A stretch of DNA of 64,000 nucleotides from Clostridiaceae bacterium (GCA_012840245.1 DULR01000015.1:1-64000); one strand, 5' to 3'. Counted from the stretch's first letter, positions 31,093 to 56,065 are shown. Notes: generated from the letters alone by a model not told the origin. Numbers and translations: made by a program.

Positions 31093-31872
31093 TCAGTTAA
31101 CACTGTTTTTTACCCTTGATTTGTACTCACGGACAGAAACACCTACGGTTCTTTTAAACAACCGAGAAAAATTGGAAAAGTCGCTGAACCCGCACATCAG
31201 AGCTGCCTGATTTGCGTTATATCCTTCGGTCAAAAGCCTCTTTGCCCTGGATATCCTTTTGTAGATAATATACTCATGCAGATTGCTTCCTACGTTCTTC
31301 CTAAACAGCCGGCTCAAATATGAACCGCTGATATAAAACTTTTTCTCCAGGCATGACAGAGAAAGGTCACCATCCAGATTCTCATCAATGTATTCCAGTA
31401 TAGGTGCCAGCCGCTTTGAAAATGCTGTCGGTTCCTCCCTGCCTCCGCTGCTTCTGAACGCCTTATTGATCAAAATGAGTATTTCCAGAAAACAGGCAAG
31501 CTTTGCCGAGCTTGCGTATTCGGATTCCCTTTGTATCCTCTCGATTTTCCGGAATAATCCCTTTAATTCCTCTATCTGCTCCGGTCTTAACACGATTTTA
31601 TTCTGCTCTCCAACAGGCCTGTTCTCAAAGCAGCTTAAAAGGTCATCTGAGTTATAGCTGAAAATCCTGGGAAGCTCGGGATCGAAATGTATAACATACC
31701 GTTCATAGGGCGAATAATCCAGGAACGACGGTTTATGGATCTCGTGGCTGTTCATGACCAGAAGGTCCCCGTATTTAAGTGCATAAGATTTTTTCTCCAC
31801 GAAATATTTCACATTCCCCGAAATAAAAAAATATATCTCATACCTTCCGTGAAGATGGAAGTCAGCAGCCAC
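31093..31872 (-). CDS. AraC-family transcription regulator
   Basis: 259 residues from a GTG: N-terminal cupin-type sugar-sensing domain (FHLHGRYEIYFFISG, LLVMNSHEIHKP) and two C-terminal HTH motifs (about 165-255, ending CGFSDFSNFSRLFKRTVGVS). The reading frame stays open and protein-like for 25 codons upstream of the GTG (PGYEIDFSHNITEGP region), up to about 31947, but has no in-frame ATG. A good SD (GGAGG, 31952-31956) is followed by an ATG in another frame. So the real start may be an ATT near 31941, or the 5' end may be frameshifted. It is divergent from the isomerase/oxidoreductase operon at 32064, its probable target. Confidence 0.88.
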   Translation of the reverse strand: MAADFHLHGRYEIYFFISGNVKYFVEKKSYALKYGDLLVMNSHEIHKPSFLDYSPYERYVIHFDPELPRIFSYNSDDLLSCFENRPVGEQNKIVLRPEQIEELKGLFRKIERIQRESEYASSAKLACFLEILILINKAFRSSGGREEPTAFSKRLAPILEYIDENLDGDLSLSCLEKKFYISGSYLSRLFRKNVGSNLHEYIIYKRISRAKRLLTEGYNANQAALMCGFSDFSNFSRLFKRTVGVSVREYKSRVKNSVN

Positions 31873-32063
31873 CGGACCTTCGGTTATATTGTGTGAAAAA
31901 TCTATTTCATATCCGGGATTTGAAAAGTAAAGATCAAGAATAGAGCATCAGCCTCCATAATCAGGTCAAAAAAAGCCATGTTTTACTCAAATAATCCAAA
32001 CTTTTTGTTTATATTATACCTTATAATAAAATCAAATAGTATACCATATCGGGAGATGGTGGC

Positions 32064-32945
32064 ATGAAATACGGAGTTTTCTCGGTAAGCATACCCGAGT
32101 ATGATGTGGAGCAGTCGGTAAAGCTCTTGAGCGAACTGGGATACAATGGCATAGAATGGAGAGTCAATAACCCTCCCCCAGCCCAAAAGCCCGACAACTA
32201 CAGCTTTGAGTCAAGATACTGGTCTTTCAACCACAGCACACTGGATATAAACAATATAGAAAGAGATGCAGCAAGGGCAAAGTCATTGTGTGATCAGTAT
32301 GGTCTTGATCTTATCTCATTGACTACATATTTAAGGCCTCACCAGGCAGATGAGGTGGAAAAGGTCCTAAAAGCCGCGCGGGATATCGGCTGCAGAAACA
32401 TCAGGGTCTTCCCGCCCGATTATAACGAAAAGGAAAACTATAACACTCTGTTTAACCGGACTGTCGACGAGCTGAAGGTTCTCGTTGAAATGGCTGCCCG
32501 GTATGGAGCAAGGATAAACCTTGAGATACACATGGGCAACATTATCCCGAGTGCAAGCGCTGCGTACAGGCTTGTTTCTCATTTCGATCCCAAATATATA
32601 GGCGTGATATATGACGAAGGAAATATGGTCCACGAAGGCTTTGAAAACTACAAGCTGGGATTGGAGCTTCTCGGAGATTACATTGCATATATCCATATAA
32701 AAAATGCCGTATGGAAAAAGATCGGAACATCGGATGCAGGTGCTGAAATCTGGAAGCCTGTCTGGGCACCGCTCAGGAAAGGATACGCAAACCTTGAAAA
32801 ACTCGTGCGGAACCTGAAGGAAACAGGATACGATGGTTACCTTTCCATAGAAGACTTCTCCAATGAATCTGAAACCTATGAAAAATTAAAGGATAATCTT
32901 CAGTTCTTAAAACAATTGGATGAAATGACAGGAGGATCATTATGA
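32064..32945 (+). CDS. TIM-barrel sugar phosphate isomerase/epimerase-like protein (first of two)
   Basis: 293-residue AP-endonuclease-2/xylose-isomerase-like TIM barrel. Likely metal ligands are Glu in INLEIHMG, Asp in VIYDEGN, His in YIHIKN and Glu in YLSIEDF. It begins an operon of four: this gene, a second barrel (four-base ATGA overlap), and two Gfo/Idh/MocA oxidoreductases. The substrate is unknown; such barrels include inosose isomerases and lyases that act on 3-keto-sugars. GGGAGATGG lies just before the ATG. Confidence 0.87.
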   Translation: MKYGVFSVSIPEYDVEQSVKLLSELGYNGIEWRVNNPPPAQKPDNYSFESRYWSFNHSTLDINNIERDAARAKSLCDQYGLDLISLTTYLRPHQADEVEKVLKAARDIGCRNIRVFPPDYNEKENYNTLFNRTVDELKVLVEMAARYGARINLEIHMGNIIPSASAAYRLVSHFDPKYIGVIYDEGNMVHEGFENYKLGLELLGDYIAYIHIKNAVWKKIGTSDAGAEIWKPVWAPLRKGYANLEKLVRNLKETGYDGYLSIEDFSNESETYEKLKDNLQFLKQLDEMTGGSL

Positions 32946-33799
32946 GCCGATTTATATTGAGCGCTTTTGCAGATGAGATCGACCCTTCTCTTCAGACTCA
33001 GATGGATGTGCTTGATGAGTATGGCATCAGGTATATCGAGATGAGAGGAGTGAATGGGAAAAATCTTACCCAATATTCACTGGATGAAGTAAAAAGTATT
33101 AAAAAACATCTGGACGAACGAGGTTTTAAGCTTTCGGCCGTCGGTTCCCCCATCGGGAAGATCATGATAACCGATGAGTTCGATTCCCACCTTGAGCTGT
33201 TCAAACATACTATCGAAATCGCAAAAATCATGGAAACGGAATATATCCGCATGTTCAGCTTTTTCATTCCTAAAGGGGAAGATCCGCTGCGCTTTCGCGA
33301 TGAGGTAATGAATCGCTGGCAGAAATTCATCAAAGCAGCAGAAGGCACGGGGCTGATCCTGCTTCATGAAAACGAGAAGGATATTTACGGGGACACTCCT
33401 GAAAGGTGCCTTGATCTTATTGAGACATTGAACTGCGATTATCTGAAGCTGGTCTTCGATCCGGCCAATTTTGTCCAGTGCGATGTAACAACATATCCCG
33501 ACGCTTATGAAATGCTGAAGGATCATATAGCGTACATGCATATCAAGGATGCTCTCTTCAAAAACCACCAGGTGGTTCCTGCAGGCCACGGGGACGGACA
33601 TGTAAAAGAGATTCTCACTGCTTTGAAGGCAAGGGGCTATGAGGGATTCCTGTCACTGGAGCCGCATCTGGCCAATTTTGTGGGTTATGCCGATCTTGAA
33701 CCCAACTCTCCGCTGAACTTGATGGAGGAGGGCGGCCCGAAACAGTTCGCAATCGCAAAAGAGGCTCTGCTTAAGATCCTGGATGAGATAGGAGGCTGA
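32942..33799 (+). CDS. TIM-barrel sugar phosphate isomerase/epimerase-like protein (second of two)
   Basis: 285 residues, same fold as its neighbour but clearly divergent. It keeps the metal set: Glu in LLHENEKD, Asp in VFDPANF, His in YMHIKDA and Glu in FLSLEPH. It overlaps the first barrel gene by ATGA and lies four bases before the oxidoreductase, with GGAGG inside its own last codons. Two paralogues in one operon suggest two consecutive steps or a heteromeric enzyme. Confidence 0.88.
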   Translation: MSRFILSAFADEIDPSLQTQMDVLDEYGIRYIEMRGVNGKNLTQYSLDEVKSIKKHLDERGFKLSAVGSPIGKIMITDEFDSHLELFKHTIEIAKIMETEYIRMFSFFIPKGEDPLRFRDEVMNRWQKFIKAAEGTGLILLHENEKDIYGDTPERCLDLIETLNCDYLKLVFDPANFVQCDVTTYPDAYEMLKDHIAYMHIKDALFKNHQVVPAGHGDGHVKEILTALKARGYEGFLSLEPHLANFVGYADLEPNSPLNLMEEGGPKQFAIAKEALLKILDEIGG

Positions 33800-33803
33800 T
33801 TTT

Positions 33804-34964
33804 ATGGAAAAAGTCCGTATAGGTATTATCGGAATAGGAAATATGGGCTCTTCCCATGCAAGAGAGCTGGCAAAAGGCAGCGTAGCCGGCGGGGAGCTTG
33901 CGGCAGTCTGCGATATAAATCCTGACCGGCTGAAGTGGGCGAAGGATACCTTTGGCGAGGATCTCGCCCTGTATGATGACGCAGATGCGCTGATCAATTC
34001 GGGAAATATTGACTCTGTTCTGGTGGCAACACCTCATTACGACCACCCGCCGCTTGCCATAAAAGCCTTTGAAAAAGGTCTCCATGTCCTTATTGAAAAG
34101 CCCGCAGGCGTTTACACCAAACAGGTCCGTGAAATGAACGAAGCTGCGCTTAAATGCAACAAGGTATTTGGGATCATGTACAATCAAAGGACCAATCCCC
34201 TGTATCAGAAGCTGAGGGACCTTGTAAAGTCGGGAGAGCTTGGCGAGCTTAAAAGGACAAACTGGATAATCACCAACTGGTACCGCTCCCAAAGCTACTA
34301 TGATTCAGGCGGTTGGAGAGCCACCTGGGCCGGTGAAGGCGGCGGTGTATTACTGAACCAGGATCCGCACCAGCTTGACTTATGGCAGTGGACGTGCGGT
34401 ATGCCGAAAAGAGTTATGGCTTTTATGTCTTTCGGAAAATATCACGATATAGAAGTGGAGGATGACGTGACAGCCTATGTAGAATATGAGAACGGCGCTA
34501 CCGGCGTATTTGTCACCTCAACAGCCGACGCGCCCGGAACGAATCGTTTCGAGGTCACCGGAGACCGCGGCAAAATCGTGATCGAAGATGACAAGCTTAT
34601 CTTCTGGCGCAACAGGATACCCGAGCGCCAGTTCAACAGGGAATACAGGGGAGGCTTCGGCCAGCCCGAATGCTGGAAATGCGAAATCCCCATCACCGGA
34701 CAAAACACTCAGCATGTTGGGATCCTTCGCAACTGGGTCGATGCAATACTTAAGGGAACAGAATTACTGGCCCCGGGAATCGAGGGAATAAACGGGCTTC
34801 AGATATCGAATGCCATGCATCTCTCAGCCTGGACGGGAAAATGGGCAGAGATCCCGGTAGATGAAGACCTCTTCTGTGAGCTGCTTCAGGAGAGGATCAG
34901 AAATTCAAAATACAGGAAAAATATCTCAGACTCAAAAGTACTGGATGTCACAGGCACCCATTAG
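33804..34964 (+). CDS. Gfo/Idh/MocA-family oxidoreductase (first of two)
   Basis: 386 residues. N-terminal Rossmann motif GIIGIGNMGSSHA, the EKP motif in LIEKPAGV (Lys in catalysis), and the active-site block GGGVLLNQDPHQLDLWQW with the His. NAD(P)-dependent oxidation or reduction of a sugar, polyol or glycoside hydroxyl is expected. Third gene of the operon. About 40 residues at the C-terminus are longer than in its paralogue downstream. Confidence 0.9.
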   Translation: MEKVRIGIIGIGNMGSSHARELAKGSVAGGELAAVCDINPDRLKWAKDTFGEDLALYDDADALINSGNIDSVLVATPHYDHPPLAIKAFEKGLHVLIEKPAGVYTKQVREMNEAALKCNKVFGIMYNQRTNPLYQKLRDLVKSGELGELKRTNWIITNWYRSQSYYDSGGWRATWAGEGGGVLLNQDPHQLDLWQWTCGMPKRVMAFMSFGKYHDIEVEDDVTAYVEYENGATGVFVTSTADAPGTNRFEVTGDRGKIVIEDDKLIFWRNRIPERQFNREYRGGFGQPECWKCEIPITGQNTQHVGILRNWVDAILKGTELLAPGIEGINGLQISNAMHLSAWTGKWAEIPVDEDLFCELLQERIRNSKYRKNISDSKVLDVTGTH

Positions 34965-34974
34965 GGAGGATAAT

Positions 34975-35988
34975 ATGCGAAGAACAGGCGTTGCAGTCAT
35001 TGGCTGCGGAGCGATATCAAAACTTCATTTTGACTCAATAGTTAATACTCCTGATACGGAGCTGATTTATGCCGTTGACATAAACGAGAAAAGGGCAAAA
35101 GATGCCGCATCTGCATATGGCTGCGGCTTTCATACCGATTACCGGGAAGTGCTCAATGATCCCGCTGTTCATGCGGTCCACCTGTGTACTCCTCATTATC
35201 TGCACTGTCAGATGGCACTGGATGCCATGGAAAAAGGAAAGCACGTGCTTACCGAAAAGCCTATGGCCATTTCACCTGAAGATGCCGAAAGAATGATACG
35301 AAAGTCGGAAGAGACCGGATTGACGCTGGGGGTCTGTTTTCAGAACAGGTACAACGCCACATCGGTTAAAATCCGGGAAGCCCTGGATTCAGGCAGGGCA
35401 GGCAGCATCCTGGGAGCTAAGGCATCGGTCACCTGGAATCGGGATGAAGGCTATTATAAAGCTGACAGCTGGCGCGGAACATGGGAAATGGAAGGCGGCG
35501 GAGTACTGATCAATCAGGCCATTCATACGCTGGATCTTCTGCAATGGTTTGCTGGAGATGCAGTAAGCGTCAGAGGAAGCTGTTTCAAAAGCCTTCTGGA
35601 AAACGTCATTGAAGTGGAAGACAGCGCCCAGGCAATAATTAAATTTGATAGCGGAGTGAATGCTCTGTTTCAGGCGACCAACTGCTATTGTGTCAACTCC
35701 CCTGTAAGCATCGAAATAATATGCACCAATGCGACCATAAACCTGGATGGAAGCCTGACCATCAGGTACAACGACGGCAAAACAGAATGCTTCACCGATG
35801 ACAATCCTATAACCGGAGAAAAATCCTACTGGGGATACAGCCATAAGCTTCTGATACAGGATTTCTATGACTGCATCCATACCGGCAGGAAATTTACTTT
35901 GGATGGCCATGAGGGAATAAAAGCCCTGAAAATCGTCAAAGCCATTTATAAGTCTTCGGATACCGGTCAGTGGGTTACATTGTCATAG
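34975..35988 (+). CDS. Gfo/Idh/MocA-family oxidoreductase (second of two)
   Basis: 337 residues. GVAVIGCGAISKLH for NAD(P), LTEKPMAIS, and GGGVLINQAIHTLDLLQW with the catalytic His. A longer frame is open upstream within the preceding gene, but GGGAGG lies six bases before the ATG at 34975, ten bases after the preceding stop. The stop codon TAG falls inside a GGGGACGG-type repeat (35980-36029). Last gene of the AraC-linked operon. Confidence 0.92.
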   Translation: MRRTGVAVIGCGAISKLHFDSIVNTPDTELIYAVDINEKRAKDAASAYGCGFHTDYREVLNDPAVHAVHLCTPHYLHCQMALDAMEKGKHVLTEKPMAISPEDAERMIRKSEETGLTLGVCFQNRYNATSVKIREALDSGRAGSILGAKASVTWNRDEGYYKADSWRGTWEMEGGGVLINQAIHTLDLLQWFAGDAVSVRGSCFKSLLENVIEVEDSAQAIIKFDSGVNALFQATNCYCVNSPVSIEIICTNATINLDGSLTIRYNDGKTECFTDDNPITGEKSYWGYSHKLLIQDFYDCIHTGRKFTLDGHEGIKALKIVKAIYKSSDTGQWVTLS

Positions 35989-36029
35989 GGACGGTTCTTA
36001 TGACAATAAGTTGTCATGGGGACAGTCCT
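35980..36029 (+). repeat. GGGGACGG-core repeat at the oxidoreductase stop codon
   Basis: Two units: TTGTCATAGGGACGGTTCTT-ATGACAA, then TTGTCATGGGGACAGTCCT. The arms TTGTCA / TGACAA are complementary. The stop codon TAG (35986-35988) lies inside the first unit. Same class and same orientation relative to the gene as the copies at 36438-36491 (murI) and 48222-48264 (GerA-like). Confidence 0.8.
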
Positions 36030-36085
36030 TTATATTATATTCATGCAATTAATAAACGTGATTTTCTACTGCGAAGCCTAACCGT

Positions 36086-36175
36086 GTCATTCTGAGGAGA
36101 AGCGACATAATGTCGCTGCTACGAAGAATCTTTTTATATGATCCTTCGACTTCGCTGCACTCCGCTCAGGATGAC
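36086..36175. repeat. Dispersed inverted repeat (TCATTCTGAGCGAAG family), long copy
   Basis: Left arm GTCATTCTGAGGAGAAGCGA and right arm TCCGCTCAGGATGAC, with inner arms CGAAGAATC / GATCCTTCG. An extra inner palindrome GCGACATAATGTCGC is inserted in the left half. Confidence 0.8.
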
Positions 36176-36250
36176 GCGAAGTTATGCGTTGAGGTCTATT
36201 AAGCTGTTGTTCAATGTGTATGCAGGGCAAAAAGCTTCGTAGCCTTACTA

Positions 36251-36332
36251 TGTCATTCTGAACGAAACGAAGTGAAGTGAAGAATCTTATAAAAGATCCT
36301 TCGACTTCGCTGCGCTTCGCTCAGGATGACAC
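36251..36332. repeat. Dispersed inverted repeat (TCATTCTGAGCGAAG family)
   Basis: TGTCATTCTGAACGAAACGA ... GAAGAATC and GATCCTTCGACTTCGCTGC ... GCTCAGGATGACA form long complementary arms. It is the second such copy in the 505-bp gap 35989-36493, which otherwise holds only the GGGGACGG units and a stretch with no gene. Confidence 0.8.
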
Positions 36333-36437
36333 AGTCAGGCTATGTAACGGATAACCGTGCTATTAATTCATATAAAACAAACAACCCGTAGTCCAGTACT
36401 AAGGGTGCACTACAGATTCTACAGATTCTTATAATCG

Positions 36438-36491
36438 TGACAGGTCCGTCCCCGTGACAATAAGTTGTCAACAGAACCGTCCCCGTGACAA
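36438..36491 (-). repeat. GGGGACGG-core repeat at the murI 3' end
   Basis: On the minus strand: TTGTCACGGGGACGGTTCTG-TTGACAA, CTTA, TTGTCACGGGGACGGACCTG-TCA. It starts two bases after the murI stop and reads in the same direction as the gene. Confidence 0.82.
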
Positions 36492-36493
36492 TG

Positions 36494-37255
36494 TTATGCG
36501 AGTATTTTCCAGTAGTTCTCCAGCAATGACGGATCATCCACTAAAACGCCTGATTTGTAAAAGGTCACTTTTCCCTTTTGATCCGGGGATTCAAGCTTGT
36601 TTTCTGACTTTAGCACTTCGTGCAGATGCCTTACAGTTCCCTCGTTTCCGTCAATTATATCCACGCCGGGAGCGATTTTCGCCAGCACTTCCTTAAACAG
36701 CGGAAAATGGGTGCAGCCCAGAACCAGCGTGCCATATTTCTCTATGTCAGATGGCAGGATCTCTCGTAAATAGGCTTCAACCTCAGGACCGCTGAAAATG
36801 AACCTTTCAGCAAACTCCACAAGCTTTGGGGCGGGCAGCATATCAACGATATGTCCGGGATCGAATCTTGAGATAAGATCCCGGAATTTCTCTTCCTTCA
36901 GTGTCAATGGAGTGGCCAGGGTAAGGACCCTTTTTTCGGCGCCGTTATTCTTCTCGACTGCGGGCTTGATGGCAGGCTCCATGCCTATAACAGGAAAATC
37001 ATATTTTTGTCTCAAGTCACGCACAGCTGCGCTCGTTGCCGTGTTGCATGCCACAACAAGGGCTTTTATATTAAGCCTGACAAGAAACTCAACAGCCGAA
37101 AAAGTCAGCGCTTTGACCTCTTCTTTAGTTTTTATGCCATACGGAGCATTGTCGGTATCTCCGTAATATATATAATTTTCATTGGGCATCAGCCTCAGGG
37201 CTTCCTTAAGGACCGAAAGCCCGCCTATGCCCGAATCGAAAAAGCCTATGCACAT
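36494..37255 (-). CDS. murI: Glutamate racemase
   Basis: 253 residues; makes D-glutamate for peptidoglycan. The two catalytic cysteines are in VVACNTATSAA (about 72-82) and LVLGCTHFPLF (about 182-192), and the N-terminal FFDSGIGGLSVLKE (about 5-18) is typical. A GGGACGGGGTAGG stretch precedes the start. Directly downstream lies a GGGGACGG repeat pair. Confidence 0.95.
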   Translation of the reverse strand: MCIGFFDSGIGGLSVLKEALRLMPNENYIYYGDTDNAPYGIKTKEEVKALTFSAVEFLVRLNIKALVVACNTATSAAVRDLRQKYDFPVIGMEPAIKPAVEKNNGAEKRVLTLATPLTLKEEKFRDLISRFDPGHIVDMLPAPKLVEFAERFIFSGPEVEAYLREILPSDIEKYGTLVLGCTHFPLFKEVLAKIAPGVDIIDGNEGTVRHLHEVLKSENKLESPDQKGKVTFYKSGVLVDDPSLLENYWKILA

Positions 37256-40830: not shown

Positions 40831-42705
40831 TCAAACCATGCGCCACACTGTTGCTTCGTAAGGTCTCAGCCAGCGGCTGTCGGTATCAGGGTAATTGGAA
40901 ATCAATCGTGTTGCGGACGGAACGCTGCCCTTCCGGCGAATGGTGTTTCTGCTTAAATTGCATTCAATAAAAAGAGTTTGTTTTTCATTTCTGCGGTAGT
41001 AGGTAAAAAGATCTGCCACTTTCTTGTTCGTGATCTCAATATCCCCATAGACCAGTGCCGGATGAGCTTTCCTGATCCGGATCAGGCTGCGGTAGAAGTT
41101 CAGTACCGAACCCTCGTCTTTCAGTTGATCTTCCACATTGCATATTTTATAATCATCATCCGTGCCTATCCAGGGCTCAGCATCGGAAAATCCCGCATAA
41201 TCGCTGCCGGACCATTGCATGGGAGTTCTTGAATGATCCCTTGATCCCGCGAGTATTTTCCTGAATGCTTCTGGTTCACTCATGCTGTTGGTCAATTCTG
41301 AATATAGATTTATACTCTCCACATCACGAAGCTGGTCAATGGATTTAAAGTCTTTATTGATCATACCAAGCTCCTGCCCCTGATATATAAACGGAGTGCC
41401 CCGGAGAGTCAGCTGCATCACAGCCAGAAGCTTTGCCAGAACGAACCTGTATTTCGGGTCAGGGTCTACCTTTGATACCATGCGGGGATTGTCGTGGTTT
41501 TCATAGAATAATGACATCTGGCTGGCAGTACCGTAATTCTCCATCCAGTCGATCATATATTCCTTCAAATAATTCAGGTCATACCGGTAATCATCGAATC
41601 TGGTCTTCCCCGGGTTTTCCAGGTGATCGAAAGAAAAAATCATATCCAGTTCGTTCCTGTAATCTGCAGTCAAAAGCTTGCTCATTTCCATTCCGATACC
41701 CGGAGTCTCACCGACCGAAAAAGCGTTGAATGGTGCGAACACTTCTTCTTTCAATTCCCGAAGGTATTGATGGAGCCTGGGCCCATAAAAATAATGCTCG
41801 ACGCCGTAAAAACCCATGAGTTCTCCGATCCGGGGATTTCCGTCAGGAAGCCCGGGCCGCTTGGAAATATAGTTTATGACATCCATCCGAAATCCATCGA
41901 TGCCCTTTTCAAGCCACCAGCGCACCATATCCTTTATTTCGCTTCTGACTTCGGGATTATCCCAGTTCAGGTCCATCTGCTTGGACGAAAACAGATGAAG
42001 GGCATATTGATCACGTTCTTCTATGTATTTCCATGCGCTGCCACTGAAGAATGAAGTCCAGTTGTTGGGTTCGTCCCTGAAAAAATAGAAATCACCGTAT
42101 TTCGAATCAGGCTCTTTGATTGCCCTCCGGAACCATTCATGCTCATCGGAGGTGTGGTTTATGACCAGATCCATGATAAGCTTCATGCCCCTTGCATGCA
42201 CAGCCTCGAGCAGCCTGTCGAAATCCTCCATGGTGCCGAACTCGGTCATGATTTTTTTATAATCTCGTATATCGTAGCCATTATCATCATTGGGGGAATC
42301 ATAAACAGGAGACAGCCAGATAGCATCAATGCCCAGATCCTTTATATAATCCAGCTTTTCGATGATGCCGTTCAAGTCTCCGATACCATCCCCGTTGCTG
42401 TCTTTGAAGCTTCTGGGATATATCTGATAAAACACGGCTTCCTTCCACCATGCAGGTTTTATGGGACCGTTTCCCGGCCTGGGCATATCATGTTCTCCGT
42501 TAAGAAGCTCCAGAATCGTATTCAGAAAATTCTCATCGACCATTCCGCCCGTAAGATTGGGAAGGTATCTGAGCTTCATGTTCCCCACGACGGGATTGGT
42601 GACAATAAGCTCTTTTTTGCCCATTTGAAGAAGTATTTTTTTAATTACGTCCTTCCCGATGGGGTGAGCGTACAGATCCTTTATCCGGCTGTTTTCTGTA
42701 AGCAT
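40831..42705 (-). CDS. GH13 alpha-glucosidase (oligo-1,6-glucosidase type) with an extra N-terminal domain
   Basis: 624 residues. Residues about 85-620 form a GH13 barrel: DLVINHTSDEH, nucleophile Asp in GFRMDVINYIS, acid/base Glu in SVGETPG and NHDNPRM with the third Asp. The order and the GDGIGDLNGI block fit the oligo-1,6-glucosidase/trehalose hydrolase group. About 75 residues precede the barrel, with IKDLYAHPIGKDVIKKIL, a small helical unit also seen at the ends of other clostridial glycosidases. No signal peptide, so it acts on imported sugars. It follows the GPH transporter gene across a 203-bp repeat-filled gap. Confidence 0.93.
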   Translation of the reverse strand: MLTENSRIKDLYAHPIGKDVIKKILLQMGKKELIVTNPVVGNMKLRYLPNLTGGMVDENFLNTILELLNGEHDMPRPGNGPIKPAWWKEAVFYQIYPRSFKDSNGDGIGDLNGIIEKLDYIKDLGIDAIWLSPVYDSPNDDNGYDIRDYKKIMTEFGTMEDFDRLLEAVHARGMKLIMDLVINHTSDEHEWFRRAIKEPDSKYGDFYFFRDEPNNWTSFFSGSAWKYIEERDQYALHLFSSKQMDLNWDNPEVRSEIKDMVRWWLEKGIDGFRMDVINYISKRPGLPDGNPRIGELMGFYGVEHYFYGPRLHQYLRELKEEVFAPFNAFSVGETPGIGMEMSKLLTADYRNELDMIFSFDHLENPGKTRFDDYRYDLNYLKEYMIDWMENYGTASQMSLFYENHDNPRMVSKVDPDPKYRFVLAKLLAVMQLTLRGTPFIYQGQELGMINKDFKSIDQLRDVESINLYSELTNSMSEPEAFRKILAGSRDHSRTPMQWSGSDYAGFSDAEPWIGTDDDYKICNVEDQLKDEGSVLNFYRSLIRIRKAHPALVYGDIEITNKKVADLFTYYRRNEKQTLFIECNLSRNTIRRKGSVPSATRLISNYPDTDSRWLRPYEATVWRMV

Positions 42706-42787
42706 GATGCAACCTCCGTTACCCTGTCACTCCAACAATGCAATCGTGTCGTGAGTGATGTCAACTGTGTCATTTGAAGAAATAAAT

Positions 42788-42840
42788 GTCAACATTCCTT
42801 TGAGGAAAGCAAAGATTCTTCGCTTTCGCTCAGAATGACA
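42788..42840. repeat. Dispersed inverted repeat (TCATTCTGAGCGAAG family), degenerate copy
   Basis: GTCAACATTCCTTTGAGGAA and TTCGCTTTCGCTCAGAATGAC around AAAGATTC. It lies next to two GGGGACGG units in the gap 42706-42908. Confidence 0.75.
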
Positions 42841-42848
42841 ATAATAAA

Positions 42849-42913
42849 AATGAGTAAAAGTCTCCGTCCCCAAAACTCATAATGAGTCAAAGTGTCCGTC
42901 CCCAAAACTCATT
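42849..42913 (-). repeat. Two tandem GGGGACGG-core 33-bp units at a stop codon
   Basis: On the minus strand AATGAGT-TTTGGGGACGG-ACACTTTG-ACTCATT is followed at once by a second unit with GAGACTTTT in the middle. The arms AATGAGT / ACTCATT are complementary, and the TGA stop of the symporter gene (42909-42911) lies in the first arm. Confidence 0.85.
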
Positions 42914-44270
42914 CTGCGAAGTCGCCGCGTTCTTTTAGTTCGGAGACGATCTTATCAAATAATTCCTTGTCTATTTTGAATTTTGCCCTGTAGACCAGAT
43001 AGCCTGCAACAATGAAGAAAATAGGAAGTATAAGCATCGACAGTTTCATTATAAGAAGTCCCGTTTCGGTCACATCATCCGGAGTCCGGGCGGCATTGAT
43101 GCCTGAAATGATCAGTGTTGCTCCAACTATACCGCTTGATATGGCCCCGCCTATTTTATTGATGAACGGCTGAACTGAGAAAGTAGTGCTTTCATTTCTG
43201 CGCCCAAGCTTCCACTGGCCGTATTCCACCGTATCTGCCAGGAACATCAGCATAAGAACCTGAATAAAAGCTTCTCCTATGAACAGGAGAACACCCGATA
43301 TGCCTATGGGGATCATGTTCATGGGCGAGAAGAAAAAGATTATGTAGCCTGTTACAACCAATATGGTTGAGAAAGTGTAAAGCTGTTTACGGGTGTACTT
43401 CTTTGCGAACAGAGGAAATATCGAAAGAGACGTAAGCTGCGTAACTCCCAGAATCCCTGCGAAAACCGAATACATCCCCTCATCTTTGAATGCATATTTA
43501 AAAAAGTACAGTCCGAAGCTGGTGGTTGTAGTATAGCCTATCATGAAAAGCGCCATGGATATCGCCGTATACATAAGCTGGTCATTTTTGAAAAGCACTG
43601 TAAACATTTCTTTCAGCGATGTGGTTTCAGCTCTGACATTGATGGATTTATCCTCTTTGACTCCAAATAAGGTAAAGCACAAAAACAGCAGCGAAAGGAC
43701 AACCACACCTACCGCAACTATGAACCAGGCCTTTGTGTCATCACCCAAAGCTCTTCCCACTTCAGGTATCCCTATCACTGCCACATACATTCCCGCATTG
43801 GCGCAGATCCTCGCGAAAGAACCTGTTTTTTCCCGCTCCTTCTGGTCTATGGTGAGGGACGGGAGCATGGACCAGTAGGCTATATCATTGGCACCGTAGG
43901 TCAGATCCCACGAAAGGTAAATTATGATGAAGGAGATCACATATCCGATTCCCCTCAAGCCCAGGTCGGTAAAAAGCAGTACAGTCAGTATCCCTCCTAG
44001 TATGCCTCCGATCGCGATCCAGGGCTTGAATTTACCCCAGCGGGACCGGGTATTGTCTACAAGAACACCCATTATGGGATCATTTACGGCATCAAAGATT
44101 CTTAGCACTGTAAGGGCCGCTGTCATATACCACATGGTTGAATCGGAAAGATTCAGGACATCGGTAAGATAATACATAAAGTACATGCTCACCAGCGAGT
44201 AAAGCATGTCCCTTCCTATAGTGCCAAGGCCAAAGGTATAACGGTTGCGTCGTGAATATGTCATTTTCAT
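42909..44270 (-). CDS. GPH-family sugar:cation symporter (MelB-like)
   Basis: 453 residues with 12 membrane helices. GPH features: RNRYTFGLGTIGRDMLY at the start, DAVNDPIMGVLVDNTRSRWGKFKPW after helix 2 and DTVEYGQWKLGRRNE in the second half. It imports melibiose- or raffinose-type sugars or other glycosides with Na+ or H+. It overlaps the GH36 gene by four bases, so alpha-galactosides are the likely cargo. Its stop is supplied by a repeat unit. Confidence 0.92.
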   Translation of the reverse strand: MKMTYSRRNRYTFGLGTIGRDMLYSLVSMYFMYYLTDVLNLSDSTMWYMTAALTVLRIFDAVNDPIMGVLVDNTRSRWGKFKPWIAIGGILGGILTVLLFTDLGLRGIGYVISFIIIYLSWDLTYGANDIAYWSMLPSLTIDQKEREKTGSFARICANAGMYVAVIGIPEVGRALGDDTKAWFIVAVGVVVLSLLFLCFTLFGVKEDKSINVRAETTSLKEMFTVLFKNDQLMYTAISMALFMIGYTTTTSFGLYFFKYAFKDEGMYSVFAGILGVTQLTSLSIFPLFAKKYTRKQLYTFSTILVVTGYIIFFFSPMNMIPIGISGVLLFIGEAFIQVLMLMFLADTVEYGQWKLGRRNESTTFSVQPFINKIGGAISSGIVGATLIISGINAARTPDDVTETGLLIMKLSMLILPIFFIVAGYLVYRAKFKIDKELFDKIVSELKERGDFAE

Positions 44271-46621
44271 TCTTCCTCCCTTCGGGATTGTGAGGTGGTG
44301 ATATGGGTGATATAGATATTGGAGCCGAAATCACCGAGCATCCGCACATTTTCATTGTATCCGGTGCCCATGAACTGGCTTTTTAACGGTATGCCTGCCT
44401 TAAGTGCCTTGTCCGAGCATTCGTACTCTTCAACGCAGTCGGTAAGGCTGTAAAAGCGGTTAGCCATACGCAGCACCAATCCGTCAGGATTGAGTTCCAC
44501 TGGAAGTATATGCTTTACAAGGCCGCCAAACCGCTTGATAAACAAGCGCTGAGGGCGCGTCCTTACAACATATCTTCCTGGCCTCAGGCCTGTTACGATG
44601 AGCTTGTCGTCGCTCTCGGCAGCAGCAGCCTGAGTCTGGAAAAAGCCGGTGAGCGCCAATGCTCCGTCGTTACTTGTCGATTGCCAGATCACCTTGTTTT
44701 CCTTGCCTCTTGATTCCCTGATCCGCGTAAACCTGCCGTATTGGAATACTCTGCGATACTTTTTGTAAAAAGCTATCTGTTCTTTTATTTCTTTAATTTC
44801 CTCATGAGAAAGATATTTCAGATCCAGTTCGTACCCGAGGCAGCCAAAACATGCCACATTGAAACGGGTAGATAAAGGAGTGTCCCGTAAAGTCTGCTGG
44901 TGAGGGGACTGGGAAACATGGGCTCCCATGGTGGAGGGAGGATAAAAATATGAAAGGCCGCCCTGAATTTTGAGCCTTTCAATTGGATCGGTATCATCCG
45001 ACGTCCAAACTTGCGGACTATAGCACAGCATGCCCAGATCAAACCTGTTTCCTCCGCTGGAGCAGCTCTCGAGAAGTATATGAGGCCTCTTATCAAAGAT
45101 CCTGTTCAAAATATCATAAAGGCCCATGATATAGCGGTGGTAAAACTCGCCCTGATTTGATATGGCAGGAGAAAAAGCCTCTGCTATATGCCTGTTCATA
45201 TCCCATTTGACATAGGACGCTGCCGATTCATCCAGGATGCGGCCTACATTTTCGACAATATAATCCCGGACTTCCTTATTGCAAATGTCCAGCACCATCT
45301 GATTCCTTCCCAGCACCGGCTTTTTGTCCGGAGATTTAACTGCATATTCAGGATGAGCGCGATACAGGCTGCTGTCAGGATTGACCATTTCAGGCTCGAA
45401 CCACAATCCGAAATCCATACCCATTTCGCGTATCTTATCGGCAAAAGACTTGAGTCCCCGGGGAAATTTCTTTTTATTCACATTATAGTCGCCTAGTCCC
45501 GCTTCATCGCTGTTCCTTTCGCCGAACCAGCCGTCGTCCAGAACAAAGAGCTCTGCGCCCAGGCTTTTGGCGGTTTTGGCCAGCTGAAGCAGTTTGCTTT
45601 CGTTAAAATCGAAAAATGTAGCCTCCCAGTTATTGAATAATACAGGCCGTTCCTTTTCCTTCCATTGGCCTCTTACAATATGTCTGTTGACAAAATCATG
45701 CATATTATGGCTCATGCCGTTGAAGCCTTTGTCACTGAAGGTCAGGACCGCTTCGGGCGTTTCAAAATCCTCGTTTTTATTTAATATCCATTCGAAAAGG
45801 TGGGGATTTATTCCCGCCGAAACCCGGACGATATCTCTTCCGCTTTTTTCTGCGCTGCCAAAATGGTTCCCGCTGTAAATCAGATTGAAACCGTACACAT
45901 TCCCATGATCCTCAGTGGCAATATCACTTGCCAGCATGAATGCGGGGTTATGACGGTTGCTGCTTGACCCTGTGGTGGAAGAGTTTATTGTCATCCCATA
46001 TCCAACCGGTGTTTTATGGAGATGGGCTTCTTTGATCCACCCTCCATCCAGGGTGTACATGTGGAAACATTCATCAGGCAGGTCCACCATCATACTCATG
46101 ATCCTGCGGATAATGAGGGGATCGTCACTTTCGTTTTTCAAAACGGCTCTCCGGGTGATGCAGTCGGCTTTTTCAAATACGGTATAGTAAAGATCGAGAA
46201 ATACATCTGAAGTAGTATCTTTCAAAGTGATCTCAAGGGTTTGATCCCCGCCATAGGATGACGGCAGGGTCTTCATGGGTACAGAACCATCAATGATCCT
46301 GTGAGACAAATAAGCAAAGTCGCTGATAAAGGTGTCGTCGGGCATTTTTATCTCTGTCGGGCTTTGGCGATAGTCGCCGCGGCCGTTGTCTGACCATTCA
46401 AGACACATATTGTCCAGACTGTACAGCTTGTCCGATCCATCATAGCATATACTGCTGCCGATGGAGACAGAGGATTTCTGAGCCATAACATCTGCAGAAT
46501 CATCCTGATCAAGCAGGGAACCGTAATAAACATGCTCCAGATGGCCGAATTTCGTGATCCTGAATATATATGTAGTATTTTCAGTATCAAGTCTGAAGAC
46601 ATTATCTTTAACAGTAATCAT
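44267..46621 (-). CDS. GH36 alpha-galactosidase
   Basis: 784 residues, the size of clostridial and Bacillus GH36 enzymes. N-terminal beta domain, then a TIM barrel with the nucleophile Asp in YVKWDMNRHI (about 490) and the acid/base Asp in VWTSDDTDPIER (about 555), plus LFVLDDGWFGERNSD. No signal peptide, so it is intracellular. It hydrolyses alpha-1,6-galactosides such as melibiose and raffinose. It overlaps the transporter gene by four bases and follows GH1. Confidence 0.95.
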   Translation of the reverse strand: MITVKDNVFRLDTENTTYIFRITKFGHLEHVYYGSLLDQDDSADVMAQKSSVSIGSSICYDGSDKLYSLDNMCLEWSDNGRGDYRQSPTEIKMPDDTFISDFAYLSHRIIDGSVPMKTLPSSYGGDQTLEITLKDTTSDVFLDLYYTVFEKADCITRRAVLKNESDDPLIIRRIMSMMVDLPDECFHMYTLDGGWIKEAHLHKTPVGYGMTINSSTTGSSSNRHNPAFMLASDIATEDHGNVYGFNLIYSGNHFGSAEKSGRDIVRVSAGINPHLFEWILNKNEDFETPEAVLTFSDKGFNGMSHNMHDFVNRHIVRGQWKEKERPVLFNNWEATFFDFNESKLLQLAKTAKSLGAELFVLDDGWFGERNSDEAGLGDYNVNKKKFPRGLKSFADKIREMGMDFGLWFEPEMVNPDSSLYRAHPEYAVKSPDKKPVLGRNQMVLDICNKEVRDYIVENVGRILDESAASYVKWDMNRHIAEAFSPAISNQGEFYHRYIMGLYDILNRIFDKRPHILLESCSSGGNRFDLGMLCYSPQVWTSDDTDPIERLKIQGGLSYFYPPSTMGAHVSQSPHQQTLRDTPLSTRFNVACFGCLGYELDLKYLSHEEIKEIKEQIAFYKKYRRVFQYGRFTRIRESRGKENKVIWQSTSNDGALALTGFFQTQAAAAESDDKLIVTGLRPGRYVVRTRPQRLFIKRFGGLVKHILPVELNPDGLVLRMANRFYSLTDCVEEYECSDKALKAGIPLKSQFMGTGYNENVRMLGDFGSNIYITHITTSQSRREEE

Positions 46622-46732
46622 CGTCTTTTCCCCTTTACATCATGGAGCGCCTCCCGCCCCATACAATTTCTCTCTGAGTTATGGGGACAGTGCTTCGCGG
46701 GCCCGGCTTGTAGCAGAATGTCCCAATTAACC

Positions 46733-46762
46733 AGAAAGATCCTTCGGCTTCGTTCGGGATGA
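46733..46762. repeat. Half copy of the TCATTCTGAGCGAAG repeat
   Basis: AAAGATCCTTCGGCTTCGTT followed by CGGGATGAC is a single arm. A nearby TTATGGGGACAG (46680-46690) is a fragment of the GGGGACGG family. The 151-bp gap 46622-46772 holds nothing else. Confidence 0.6.
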
Positions 46763-46772
46763 CTTGCAGGGA

Positions 46773-48056
46773 CTAATAATGATATTGCTGGTTTTTGACA
46801 TATTCATCATAGATCTCTTTTGTTACTCCGCCTGCCCTGATGATCTCAGAGAAGAACTCTCCGGACCTTTTTATTGTGCGGGCTTGTGTTTCGTAATCCA
46901 CATAAACGAGACCAAACCTTGCGCTCTCACCCTCGAGCCATTCAAAATTGTCGCAGAAGCACCAGTGATAATAACGCTCTATGGGAAGCTCCGAGCTGCA
47001 AAGGGTTTTCAGATGGTCATATATGTAGCGGCAGCGGAAAATGTCCTTGTTGTCACAGGTCCCGTTTTCGGTTATGTATATGGGGCGTTTGAGTACGTTA
47101 TACAATTTTTCTGCGCAGCGTATGATGCCCTGAGGATAGACCTCCCAGCCCAGATCATTTTTGGGCGCATCTTTTTTCACTCCGTCACCAAACCGGTAAA
47201 CAGTAGTACGGGTATAATAATTAAGGGCTATAAAGTCACAGTATTCACCCGGTTTCACATGCAGATAATTTTTGATGGGCCATTTGAACTTACCCAGATA
47301 CATAGCCTCGGTTATTGCGTCCTGAAAGAAACGATCCAGCATGGATGCCGTTATTCTGTGCTTCAGGTTTTTGTGGTTTTCGGGGTCGAAAACTCTCATA
47401 TGATGCGCAAAACTGACCTTAGTATCGTCATACCCCATTTCTTTTCTCATTTTATGTATCAGCTTATATGCCTCGATATGGCAGGCTGTCATTACTGACA
47501 TTACTTTCATGGCACGTGCGAAGGATTTTTCCCCGGGAGGCCACTCTCCGAAGAAGAATGAGCTCGTTGCATATACGTTTGGCTCATTTATTGTTATGTA
47601 TTCCGAAATCATATCTCCAAAGGATTCCACCACGAGCTTGACCAGATCGAGAAAGTGCCTGATATTCTCAACCTTTGTAAATCCGCCTTTCTTCTCGAAC
47701 CACATGGGATTGGTGAAATGATGGATGGTCAGAAGCAGCTTAATGCCCTTTTTCTGAAGGTATTCCATTTCCTCTCGGTAATGAGCGATGGCCGATTCAT
47801 CGACCATATCCTCAGTGGGACAGATCCTTGCCCATTCAATTCCGAAACGGTAGATCTGAAGCCCCATTGATGCCATCAAATCGGCATCCTCTTTCCAAAG
47901 GTTGTAATGGTCGGTGGATCTTGCCGGATTTGACCTGTCTTTGATATTGCCTCTGGCATACCAGTCATTCCAGTTATGCCCCAGTTCTCCTCCTTCGATC
48001 TGAGTAGCGGCCGATGCCGCGCCAAGTAAAAGACCCGGTTTAAGCCTGAATTCCAT
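46773..48056 (-). CDS. GH1 beta-glucosidase
   Basis: 427 residues. Acid/base Glu in ITINEPNVYA (about 163), nucleophile Glu in YITENGTC (about 330), and the N-terminal FLLGAASAATQIEGG, here LLLGAASAATQIEGG, with the conserved His-Trp substrate positions (HHFTNPMWFE). It hydrolyses beta-glucosides, possibly unphosphorylated, since no PTS is near. No signal peptide. Upstream of the GH36/GPH genes. Confidence 0.94.
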   Translation of the reverse strand: MEFRLKPGLLLGAASAATQIEGGELGHNWNDWYARGNIKDRSNPARSTDHYNLWKEDADLMASMGLQIYRFGIEWARICPTEDMVDESAIAHYREEMEYLQKKGIKLLLTIHHFTNPMWFEKKGGFTKVENIRHFLDLVKLVVESFGDMISEYITINEPNVYATSSFFFGEWPPGEKSFARAMKVMSVMTACHIEAYKLIHKMRKEMGYDDTKVSFAHHMRVFDPENHKNLKHRITASMLDRFFQDAITEAMYLGKFKWPIKNYLHVKPGEYCDFIALNYYTRTTVYRFGDGVKKDAPKNDLGWEVYPQGIIRCAEKLYNVLKRPIYITENGTCDNKDIFRCRYIYDHLKTLCSSELPIERYYHWCFCDNFEWLEGESARFGLVYVDYETQARTIKRSGEFFSEIIRAGGVTKEIYDEYVKNQQYHY

Positions 48057-48218
48057 AGCTCGACCTCCGCATCATTGGTTGGATATGTCTCTTCAATTTT
48101 ATCATGAAATGGTCTTTTCTTCTATAATATATGACATTTAAAACAAGGGACAGTTTTTTACCTCAGATTGGAACACGGAAATCTTAACAGATGCGATACA
48201 GAACCAGCGCTTGCTTGC

Positions 48219-50249
48219 TTAGGTCTGTCCCTGTGACATGTCAGAAGAACCGTCCCCGTGACAAGGTTTTTTCGCCCGGCTCTTTATCTCGGCAGTTATC
48301 CAGATAATGACCGGAAGGATTACCTGAAACGGAAATGCGTAATACGGATATATGGAAATGGCCCATTCAGTCATTTCCGGTCCGCTGTCATAAACGATGA
48401 TGGAAAGCAATACCATCAGTATTCCTAAAGGCGCTGCGATATTCCGATATTCCTTTATGTTGAAAACAGATGAAAGCCCTCTGCTCGCCGCGAACAGACA
48501 AACAGTGTTTTTGGTGAATCCGCTGATAATGAATTCAACGGCGACAGTTGCCTCTATTCTTTGAAAAAAAGACCCTATCTTTATCAAACGGCTTGTTGCA
48601 TAGGTGGAATAATTCTGGATCATCTTTGTCGGAATGCCCAGAACCAGTATTGAAAGTACGGAAATAACGAGCAATAAGGTACCCCCGATAAAAAGCGAAA
48701 TGTAATATGTTTTGTACGGGCTGCTGCCTTTTCTCAGATCCCCCAGCAAGGCTAAAAACAGCACCGTCTCGGCAAAAGGAAAGCTGAATAATCCGAACGA
48801 AGCGCTGAATACCGGCTTGAAGCCATCATATAAAAAAGGTTTTAAATTTTTCAAGTCATAAAGAGGTATTGCCATCAGAGTGACTATAATTATCAATGCG
48901 ATATATATCGGGAAAAAAAGCGCAAGAAATCGGCCAAGCAGTTCAACGCCGCCCCTTACTGTATATATTACAAGTATGACACCAAAAAACGCGAATATGC
49001 ATTCCGGTGTCTCCGGTAACGAAACCGTACGGACAAATTCCGAAATGTTTCTCATAATAAGGGCTGCCGTACCCAACACCAGAGCTCCCAGAATACTCAG
49101 AGCTTGTCCGATCTGTATCGGCACTCTCATGCCTACTTCCCTCATGATCTCAAAAACAACCAGCAATCCAAGGGTTTCTATAACCGTAGGGAGAGGTATT
49201 CCCTCCCTTGCCGCAGATATGCTGAACAACAGGGGGGAAGGGATCATCTCCTGATGGAAGGTCAGGATAGCGACATAGGCGGCCGGCAGAAGAATGGTGA
49301 TGATGAAGCTTAAGAACCTTAGCATCCTGCTTATTGATGAGTAATAAAAATTGATATAATAATCGTCATTGGCTTTAAAGTATTCCTCAAACAAAAAAGG
49401 TACAGTCAGCGCTGACGGCGATCCATCCACTATTACTACGATATGCCCGTCAAGCATCATCAAAGCAGCGATATCAGGCCTTTCGGTACTTCCTACCGTA
49501 TCGAAGGGTGAATACGGTGAATCCTCTATCAGCTCGGTGATAAACCCTGAATCCAGGATACCGTCGAAATCTATCTTGCTTAGTCTGTCCGTCAATTCAT
49601 TGAGGATCTCCTTGTTTACTATGTCATCAAGATAGCAAATGCCTATTTTTGTTTTGGTCTGTTTACCGATAACCATATTTTTGATCTTCAGATTGGTTGT
49701 AGGAAGCTTTCTCCGAATCATGGTCAGATTCAGGCTTATGGATTCCACAAAACCCTCTCTTGGACCTCGTTGAACCTTTTCATTTTCCGGTTCGGTAATA
49801 TCTCTTGATTTCCAGCCCTCGGTTTTTATAGAAAGCGCTTCATCGCACTTTTCCATCAACAGTATGCTTTCACCGCGCAATAGTCCCTCGGTCATTTTAT
49901 GAAAATCACATATTTTTTCAGCATGATTGGATATAACGACCTGTTCCAGTATCACATCCATGTTGCCTTCGAAGTTTATGGGTAAGCTGCTTTTGATTAT
50001 AGGACGGATGATGTTTCTGTTAGCCGATTCCTTATCAGCCATCCCGTCGATATATATCAGACAAAACTCTGTTTTGCTGTACTCCTGATTGCGGAAGCTC
50101 CTTACTATCAGACCGTCGTGGTCACTAAAAATCTCTTTTATCTCATTTAAATTATCATCCAGCGACATATAAAGCGTTTTGCTTTTATTTCCGCTTTTCT
50201 CCGAACCGGTTTCCTGCGGGTTTTCCTTATCCTTGCTGTCTCTCGGCAT
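48219..50249 (-). CDS. GerA-family spore germination protein (GerAA/SpoVAF type) with a repeat-encoded tail
   Basis: 676 residues: a soluble N-terminal region (about 1-310) with LIVRSFRN and the GerA block DGHIVVIVDGSPSALTVP, then five or six membrane helices (about 315-650) with IPLPTVIETLGLLVVFEI and RVPIQIGQALSILGALV. It would sit in the inner spore membrane as a germinant-receptor A subunit or SpoVAF-like protein. No B or C subunit genes follow. The last 15 residues, CHGDGSSDMSQGQT and the preceding Pro region, are coded by a GGGGACGG repeat (48222-48264), so the natural C-terminus was changed. A SigG-like promoter lies upstream. Confidence 0.92.
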   Translation of the reverse strand: MPRDSKDKENPQETGSEKSGNKSKTLYMSLDDNLNEIKEIFSDHDGLIVRSFRNQEYSKTEFCLIYIDGMADKESANRNIIRPIIKSSLPINFEGNMDVILEQVVISNHAEKICDFHKMTEGLLRGESILLMEKCDEALSIKTEGWKSRDITEPENEKVQRGPREGFVESISLNLTMIRRKLPTTNLKIKNMVIGKQTKTKIGICYLDDIVNKEILNELTDRLSKIDFDGILDSGFITELIEDSPYSPFDTVGSTERPDIAALMMLDGHIVVIVDGSPSALTVPFLFEEYFKANDDYYINFYYSSISRMLRFLSFIITILLPAAYVAILTFHQEMIPSPLLFSISAAREGIPLPTVIETLGLLVVFEIMREVGMRVPIQIGQALSILGALVLGTAALIMRNISEFVRTVSLPETPECIFAFFGVILVIYTVRGGVELLGRFLALFFPIYIALIIIVTLMAIPLYDLKNLKPFLYDGFKPVFSASFGLFSFPFAETVLFLALLGDLRKGSSPYKTYYISLFIGGTLLLVISVLSILVLGIPTKMIQNYSTYATSRLIKIGSFFQRIEATVAVEFIISGFTKNTVCLFAASRGLSSVFNIKEYRNIAAPLGILMVLLSIIVYDSGPEMTEWAISIYPYYAFPFQVILPVIIWITAEIKSRAKKPCHGDGSSDMSQGQT
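48222..48264 (-). repeat. GGGGACGG-core repeat inside the 3' end of the GerA-like gene
   Basis: Minus strand: TTGTCACGGGGACGGTTCTT-CTGACA then TGTCACAGGGACAGACC. It is the same class as at 35980 and 36438 but without the four-base linker. It is translated as the last residues of the GerA-like protein; the TAA follows at once. Confidence 0.82.
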
Positions 50250-50295
50250 ATGTCACCCTCATCCATCTTAAGTATTTTTATTCTTAAGTATGGAT

Positions 50296-50327
50296 TAGTA
50301 TGCTTTAAAACAGCTGTTATTATTACA
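50296..50327 (-). promoter_or_regulatory. SigG-like forespore promoter of the GerA-family gene
   Basis: -10 CATACTA (50296-50302) fits the SigG/SigF CATNMTA consensus; the -35-like TGTAATA (50321-50327) lies 18 bp upstream. The -10 is 47 bp before the GerA start. Germination receptor genes are known SigG targets. Confidence 0.5.
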
Positions 50328-50430
50328 GGTCAGGAATTTAATGAGCGTGAGCAAAATAAGGAAGATCACTTTATCTATTAATTAACAAAGAATATTAAAA
50401 AATATGCTGGATTTTTTTGAAAAGTGATGT

Positions 50431-50457
50431 TATAATTTTAGTAGTTTTACGTTAAAC
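50431..50457 (+). promoter_or_regulatory. Promoter -10 and LacI-type operator of the GH65 operon
   Basis: TATAAT (50431-50436; weak -35 TGGATT 17 bp upstream) is followed by the near-palindrome GTTTTACGTTAAAC (50444-50457). Almost the same site, GTTTAATGTTAAAC, lies before the LacI gene at 56083-56096. A repressor bound here would block transcription start. Confidence 0.6.
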
Positions 50458-50541
50458 TTTTATGATATAGATCCATTAGTACTGGTTTTTCGAAACCAAC
50501 CACCCTATGTCGGCTGTATTCTGAATAAAGGAGATAAGAAA

Positions 50542-52851: not shown

Positions 52852-52853
52852 AC

Positions 52854-55058: not shown

Positions 55059-56065
55059 ATAGCCCTCACGCTTTCCCTTTCAACGAGATATGTGGGCAGG
55101 ATTACCTCTCTTTTCTCAGGTTTTTTGCCTTCAAGCATCTCGAGCATCATATCAACGGCGATTTTTCCGCGCAGGGGGATATCCTGGTGTATTGTGGTCA
55201 GCGTAGGTGTGACCATCTGGCAAAGGCTTATATCGTCAAAGCCCACCACAGATATGTCATCAGGGACCTTTTTCCCGCACCTGCGCAGGCCTGCCATTAT
55301 GCCGGCGGCCATGACGTCAGCGGTCACGACGATTCCGGTGATATCAGGAATTTTGCATATTTCTTTGCTGAGGCTCAGGCATGATTCTATGTCCATTTCA
55401 TTTTCAAACACGAGTCTTTTGTCAAAAGGAATCGAGTTTTCGGTCAATGCGGCTTTATATCCATAAAAACGTTCCTGCAAAACGCCGCCATCCCTGATGT
55501 TGGGAGAAGCGAACGCTATACGCCTGTGGCCTTTTGAAATCAGATATTTGGTAGCGGTATAGCTTCCCTCAAAGTCTTCCAGACCAACGTTGCAGAAATT
55601 GGGATGCTGTACATAGCTGTCTATCAGAACGATGGGAATGGTAAGTGTTGAAAGCAAATCAAAAAATTCGTCTTTGAATATGCCGGTAAAGAACATGCCA
55701 TCCACATTCCAGTTCCTTAGGAACTTCAATAGCTCTTCGGATGTCTCTACCGTCCTTAGCATAAGGTAATACCCGTTTTCGCGCAGCACGCGCTCAATAG
55801 CTCCAATAAAAGACGACTGGAAAGGATCTTCCATGATATTTGACTGGTTGTGCGGAACGATATGGTTGATCATGCCGATAACTTTTGATGAATTCGATAC
55901 CAGGGAGCGCGCCGACATATTTGGCACATATCCCAGCTCGATTATCGCTTTATTTATTTTTTCTATCGTTTCGGCTGATACACGCCCGGATTTGCCATGG
56001 ATAACATTTGAAACAGTCGTGGCACTTACTCCAGTAACCCTGGCTATGTCTTTTATTGTTGCCAT
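55055..56065 (-). CDS. LacI-family repressor
   Basis: 336 residues. N-terminal HTH and hinge (TIKDIARVTGVSATTVSNVI; 2-60, with the AINELGYVPN-like hinge region) and a sugar-binding core (about 60-330). It is convergent with the GH65 pair and shares with it a near-identical operator, which points to control of the pair and of itself. The effector could be a GH65 substrate. CAAGGAG lies before the ATG. Confidence 0.94.
   Translation of the reverse strand: MATIKDIARVTGVSATTVSNVIHGKSGRVSAETIEKINKAIIELGYVPNMSARSLVSNSSKVIGMINHIVPHNQSNIMEDPFQSSFIGAIERVLRENGYYLMLRTVETSEELLKFLRNWNVDGMFFTGIFKDEFFDLLSTLTIPIVLIDSYVQHPNFCNVGLEDFEGSYTATKYLISKGHRRIAFASPNIRDGGVLQERFYGYKAALTENSIPFDKRLVFENEMDIESCLSLSKEICKIPDITGIVVTADVMAAGIMAGLRRCGKKVPDDISVVGFDDISLCQMVTPTLTTIHQDIPLRGKIAVDMMLEMLEGKKPEKREVILPTYLVERESVRAI

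Follow-up and report, generated by a model that had tools for sequence, protein, structure and literature searches.

A predicted redox-neutral pathway for glucuronide cleavage encoded by an AraC-linked operon of a Clostridiaceae bacterium

Two isomerase-like barrel proteins and two oxidoreductases encoded side by side raise the question of which substrate such a set would process, and by what chemistry. We addressed this question for positions 31093 to 35988 of a 64,000-nucleotide stretch of DNA from a Clostridiaceae bacterium (GCA_012840245.1 DULR01000015.1:1-64000; hereafter the window), which is contig C50 of a 2.9-Mb genome that is 99.99% complete. An earlier note on this DNA had described an AraC-controlled operon of this 2+2 composition. 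Domain searches, the gene junctions and conserved gene order confirmed this description, and the note was also correct that the operon itself contains no kinase, aldolase or transporter gene. We consider it probable that the products of the operon together act as a formal glucuronidase, in four steps that are redox-neutral overall, and that the resulting glucuronate is fed to the pentose-phosphate route. The locus comprises the following features.

31093..31941, minus strand: AraC-family regulator with AraC_binding and HTH_18 domains; the probable coding start is near 31941 (possible ATT) and not at GTG 31872
31942..32063, no strand assigned: divergent intergenic region, presumed to contain promoters and an operator
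32064..32945, plus strand: B1 (293 amino acids), AP_endonuc_2 TIM barrel; putative 3-keto-glycoside lyase or hydratase
32942..33799, plus strand: B2 (285 amino acids), AP_endonuc_2 TIM barrel; putative beta-eliminase, perhaps also hydratase
33804..34964, plus strand: DH1, Gfo/Idh/MocA dehydrogenase; putative glucuronide C3 dehydrogenase
34975..35988, plus strand: DH2, Gfo/Idh/MocA dehydrogenase; putative 3-keto-glucuronate reductase that would regenerate NAD+ (nicotinamide adenine dinucleotide)

All five genes were found, with the divergent AraC gene followed by the two barrel genes and then the two dehydrogenase genes. B1 and B2 matched PF01261 (AP_endonuc_2) with E-values of 1.6e-29 and 2.2e-28, respectively, and DH1 and DH2 each contained the N- and C-terminal Gfo/Idh/MocA domains. 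The B1 and B2 genes overlap by 4 bp (ATGA), gaps of 4 and 10 bp separate B2 from DH1 and DH1 from DH2, and a purine-rich ribosome-binding site precedes every operon gene. The DH2 start was corrected to ATG 34975 from a mechanically called open reading frame that had begun at 34861. Two more genomes from this genus, G004 (proteins 82-91% identical) and G009, retain the order AraC/B1-B2-DH1-DH2, and shuffled or reduced versions are spread across the Bacillota; thus, the arrangement is not a product of chance. The intergenic region aligned with that of G004 at a mean column identity of 88% across 31900-32066. Homology of the AraC protein continues upstream of GTG 31872 as far as ~31941, where an ATT codon is preceded by GGAGG; the corresponding codon is ATT in G004, ATG in G005 and GTG in G009. 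Judging from the sequence, an AUU start codon is possible for this gene.

The substrate prediction depends most on DH1. Its best match among solved structures was PDB 8tdi (E 1.6e-108; 51% identity across 365 residues), which bears the database name 'P2B11 glucuronide-3-dehydrogenase', while the next solved chain had an E-value of 9.7e-34. Residues 1-390 of P2B11 were used for comparison. A maximum-likelihood tree built from 37 proteins nested P2B11 within the DH1 clade with support of 100/100; its bootstrap had yet to converge fully, and the inner DH1 forks were mostly open. DH2, its closest solved relatives 3q2k (34%) and 3q2i (33%), and the C-glycoside dehydrogenase DgpA1 fell outside this clade. 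The segment W171-R-A-T-W175 (WRATW) was invariant in P2B11 and in every DH1 sampled. The corresponding motif is WRGTW in DH2, which is not retained by all DH2 relatives, and WRGKW/WRGTW in 3q2k/3q2i, which we take to be WlbA UDP-N-acetylglucosaminuronate 3-dehydrogenases; their database names say no more than oxidoreductase or dehydrogenase. The WR..W motif was not present in DgpA1, nor in three further Gfo paralogues that the present genome encodes. By these sequence comparisons DH1 is a member of the P2B11-type glucuronide 3-dehydrogenase clade, and we infer that it is an NAD-dependent glucuronide C3 dehydrogenase.

The structures predicted for B1 and B2 each consisted of one confident barrel, with predicted local distance difference test values of 93.9 and 92.2. 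Alignment of B1 with UlaE and of B2 with IolI showed invariant Glu/Asp/His/Glu ligand columns, and the metal ligands are intact in both proteins (E154, D184, H211 and E263 in B1; E143, D173, H200 and E240 in B2). When the barrels were compared by sequence with solved structures, the matches were only weak and generic. AtHYD (8ro4) was among the fold matches of B1 and B2, and it was not ranked above generic epimerases. Within the window's own clade B2 is the most common barrel partner of DH1, and the partner sets among relatives include DH1 with B2 only, B2 with DH2, and B1 without B2. The earlier note had suggested that the two barrels form one enzyme. As several relatives carry a single barrel beside DH1, either B2 or B1, an obligate B1/B2 heterodimer is argued against and this suggestion was weakened. 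The variation in partner sets suggests by analogy that one barrel can suffice, as for LgdB2 of the levoglucosan pathway, which was reported to be partially bifunctional.

In the predicted pathway, DH1 would oxidize a glucuronide at C3 with NAD+. A metal-dependent barrel, most likely B2, would catalyze beta-elimination across C1-C2, with departure of the aglycone and formation of 2-hydroxy-3-keto-glucuronal. Addition of water by B1 or B2 would yield 3-keto-glucuronate, which DH2 would reduce with NADH to D-glucuronate, thereby regenerating NAD+. The proposal builds on the gene order, the clade membership of DH1, the intact metal ligands, and the proximity of glucuronate genes to the operon in the relatives described below; each catalytic step, the division of labor between B1 and B2, and the downstream route are predictions. 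Two ideas of the earlier note, a non-hydrolytic 3-keto/beta-elimination route and two dehydrogenases working in opposite directions, gained support from the position of DH1 in the P2B11 clade and from the parallel with LgdA-LgdB1-LgdB2-LgdC (Kuritani et al. 2020, PMC7676230). The latter is a 2+2 set that performs oxidation, elimination, hydration and reduction with recycling of NAD, and the diversity of this pathway has been surveyed (PMC10066097). As for the substrate, a glucuronide is more likely than a glucoside. Alpha-glucuronidases of families GH67 and GH115 were not found in the genome, and beta-glucuronidases of families GH2 and GH79 were not searched for.

Glucuronate genes adjoin the operon in several relatives, which is why we propose uronide specificity. 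In G009 the operon is followed by AraC-AraC-6PGD-SDR-LarA-like-UxaC, where 6PGD is 6-phosphogluconate dehydrogenase and SDR is a short-chain dehydrogenase/reductase. G021 contains the co-directional series barrel-DH1-B2-DH2-FGGY kinase-SDR-like-6PGD-UxaC, in which the FGGY kinase is gluconokinase-like, below cut-off. DH1...SDR-B1-Gfo-UxuA was found in Paenibacillus profundus, and B2-DH1-UxuA in a metagenome-assembled genome (locus L128). The present genome carries a second operon on contig C69 (locus L046, 1784-8204), PfkB-like kinase-UxaC-LarAH18-SDR-6PGD, with a divergent AraC gene. Its UxaC and D-mannonate oxidoreductase scored 582.2 and 408.7 bits against cut-offs of 387 and 281, and the 'putative hexonate epimerase' and 6PGD likewise passed their NCBIfam cut-offs. 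Among 32 genomes of the family, LarAH18 was found in 13 of 16 with DH1 and 4 of 16 without it (Fisher p 0.004), and UxaC in 15 of 16 and 8 of 16, respectively (p 0.015), both uncorrected for phylogeny.

The mannonate dehydratase UxuA (PF03786) was not found in the present genome, where the controls were positive, and we therefore propose a LarA-type route. UxaC would convert glucuronate to fructuronate and D-mannonate oxidoreductase would convert this to mannonate. A LarA-group-18 2-epimerase would then produce gluconate, from which a sugar kinase and 6-phosphogluconate dehydrogenase would generate ribulose 5-phosphate. The FGGY kinases in the genome were a glycerol kinase, a sub-threshold XylB-like kinase and one weak match, which leaves the PfkB-like kinase encoded next to UxaC as the candidate for this phosphorylation. 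D-Mannonate/D-gluconate epimerization has been described for LarA groups 19 and 20, and hexonate epimerization by group 18 has only been hypothesized (PMC7583248). A further, tentative idea, which we hold to be possible and rather doubtful, is that both AraC-adjoined operons form one regulon taking glucuronides to ribulose 5-phosphate without a hydrolase or the UxuA/2-keto-3-deoxygluconate branch, with LarAH group 18 acting as a mannonate-gluconate 2-epimerase that works without the LarC-encoded cofactor pathway. Of the 17 genomes of the family that bear LarAH18, 11 gave no LarC match, the present genome and the single-contig G026 among them, in a search that was positive in 6 of 14 controls.

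Several results weigh against the glucuronidase pathway or parts of it. Since LarC synthesizes the nickel-pincer cofactor (NPN), the failure to find it in the present genome weakens the epimerase step. G004, with its operon at 82-91% identity, gave no UxaC match, and most other DH1 loci, in Paenibacillus and elsewhere, had no UxaC or UxuA gene within the examined flank. Foldseek comparison of B1 and B2 with the PDB returned many sugar isomerases and no specific preference for a lyase or hydratase, and it did not distinguish these two functions from that of an epimerase. Loci with DH1 only or with DH1 and B1 also exist, so the partner set varies. The activity of P2B11 is taken from its PDB name. 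Finally, it is by inference that we assign the WR..W motif a part in binding the C6 carboxylate.

Other uronides have to be weighed as substrates. The same 3-keto/elimination chemistry could act on unsaturated, galacturonic or other uronic-acid oligosaccharides released by polysaccharide lyases, which we regard as unlikely. Galacturonate as well as glucuronate is a substrate of UxaC, which counts for this alternative, as does a DH1 subclade (loci L035, 4131-12467, and L037; homologues 62-64% identical) that adjoins a lyase of the heparinase II/III type, an AP_endonuc_2 protein and an extracellular solute-binding protein. These domains were identified in L035, and L037 was matched to it by gene sizes and order; the two loci are perhaps a uronide-oligosaccharide version of the system. 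However, the closest neighbors that have uronate genes carry mannonate-oxidoreductase-like SDRs and UxuA, both of the glucuronate branch, and glucuronides are the substrates after which P2B11 is named. Deglycosylation of C- or O-glucosides by enzymes of the DgpA/DgpB-DgpC (CGE) type, the model put forward in the earlier note, now appears quite improbable. DgpA ranks among the top five solved relatives for DH1 and DH2 alike, and the superfamilies are shared; in addition, B1 and B2 have PF01261 in common with the CGE alpha subunit, and the B1 profile weakly matched 7exz. Nevertheless, DH1 is much closer to P2B11, in whose clade it lies, than to DgpA, DgpA1 is without WR..W, and the published DgpA homologue D3dgpA did not react with apigenin-7-O-glucuronide. 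The CGDB beta-subunit family PF19906 had no match in the present genome, in a weak test in which the control genomes gave none either.

Two further pathways share gene families with the operon, and both are highly improbable here. Breakdown of inositol or inositol glycosides, which the earlier note had named as its other option, would be consistent with weak matches of both dehydrogenases and B1 to the iolG and iolE models, but the dehydrogenases scored 110 and 139 against the iolG cut-off of 355 and B1 scored 37 against the iolE cut-off of 290. IolD was not above cut-off anywhere in the genome (best 248.6 versus 715 bits), and this option is not supported. Use of levoglucosan (1,6-anhydroglucose) by the Lgd pathway would fit in that its 2+2 set is drawn from identical families and its reactions follow the same order. 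Against it, DH1 and DH2 scored 74.9 and 110 bits with the levoglucosan dehydrogenase model NF052479 (cut-off 650 bits), and DH1 matched 6a3f with an E-value of 3.5e-16, versus 1.6e-108 for P2B11. We take 6a3f, labeled 'putative dehydrogenase' in the database, to be a levoglucosan dehydrogenase.

Elsewhere in the window, the interval 35990-36500 between the operon and the next gene contains repeats such as GACAATAAGTTGTCA and CCTTCGACTTCGCTGC. Positions 40831-56065 form a glycoside-use region with GH13 and an MFS_2 permease identified by Pfam; translations judged by eye added GH36-like and GH1-like proteins, two GH65-like phosphorylases and a LacI regulator.

Redox/elimination glycosidases have been recognized only recently, and in genome annotation their components appear as 'sugar phosphate isomerase' and 'oxidoreductase'. 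A general pathway of this kind was reportedly described by Nasseri et al. in Nature in 2024 (doi 10.1038/s41586-024-07574-y; cited in PMC13273386). The chemistry is already published; the additions made here are the link with glucuronate genes and the setting in which LarA group 18 occurs. The operon is a compact uronide-linked example whose neighborhood predicts the fate of the product, WR..W is a sequence mark by which uronide members may be told apart from glucoside members, and a genomic context is supplied for LarA group 18, the activity of which has so far only been hypothesized.

Four known systems invite comparison with the glucuronidase pathway proposed here. P2B11 shares the clade and the WRATW motif of DH1, whereas the present operon occurs in an uncultured Clostridia lineage and adjoins an AraC regulator. 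DgpA with DgpB/DgpC or PuCGE/AgCGD likewise combines C3 oxidation by a Gfo/Idh/MocA enzyme with beta-elimination by a metal-dependent TIM barrel; the C-glycoside lyase is heterodimeric and includes a beta subunit (PMC13273386), for which the present genome gave no PF19906 match in the weak test without positive control. The Thermotoga maritima-type hexuronate route with the gluconate 2-epimerase GntE (PMC7583248) also proceeds from mannonate through gluconate to the pentose phosphate pathway, but the epimerase here falls in LarAH group 18, with its hypothesized activity, and LarC was not found. The Lgd pathway, like the present operon, pairs two Gfo/Idh/MocA dehydrogenases with two sugar-isomerase-like proteins; it differs in that DH1 is not a levoglucosan dehydrogenase by sequence, no ABC transporter adjoins the operon, and the predicted substrate is a uronide.

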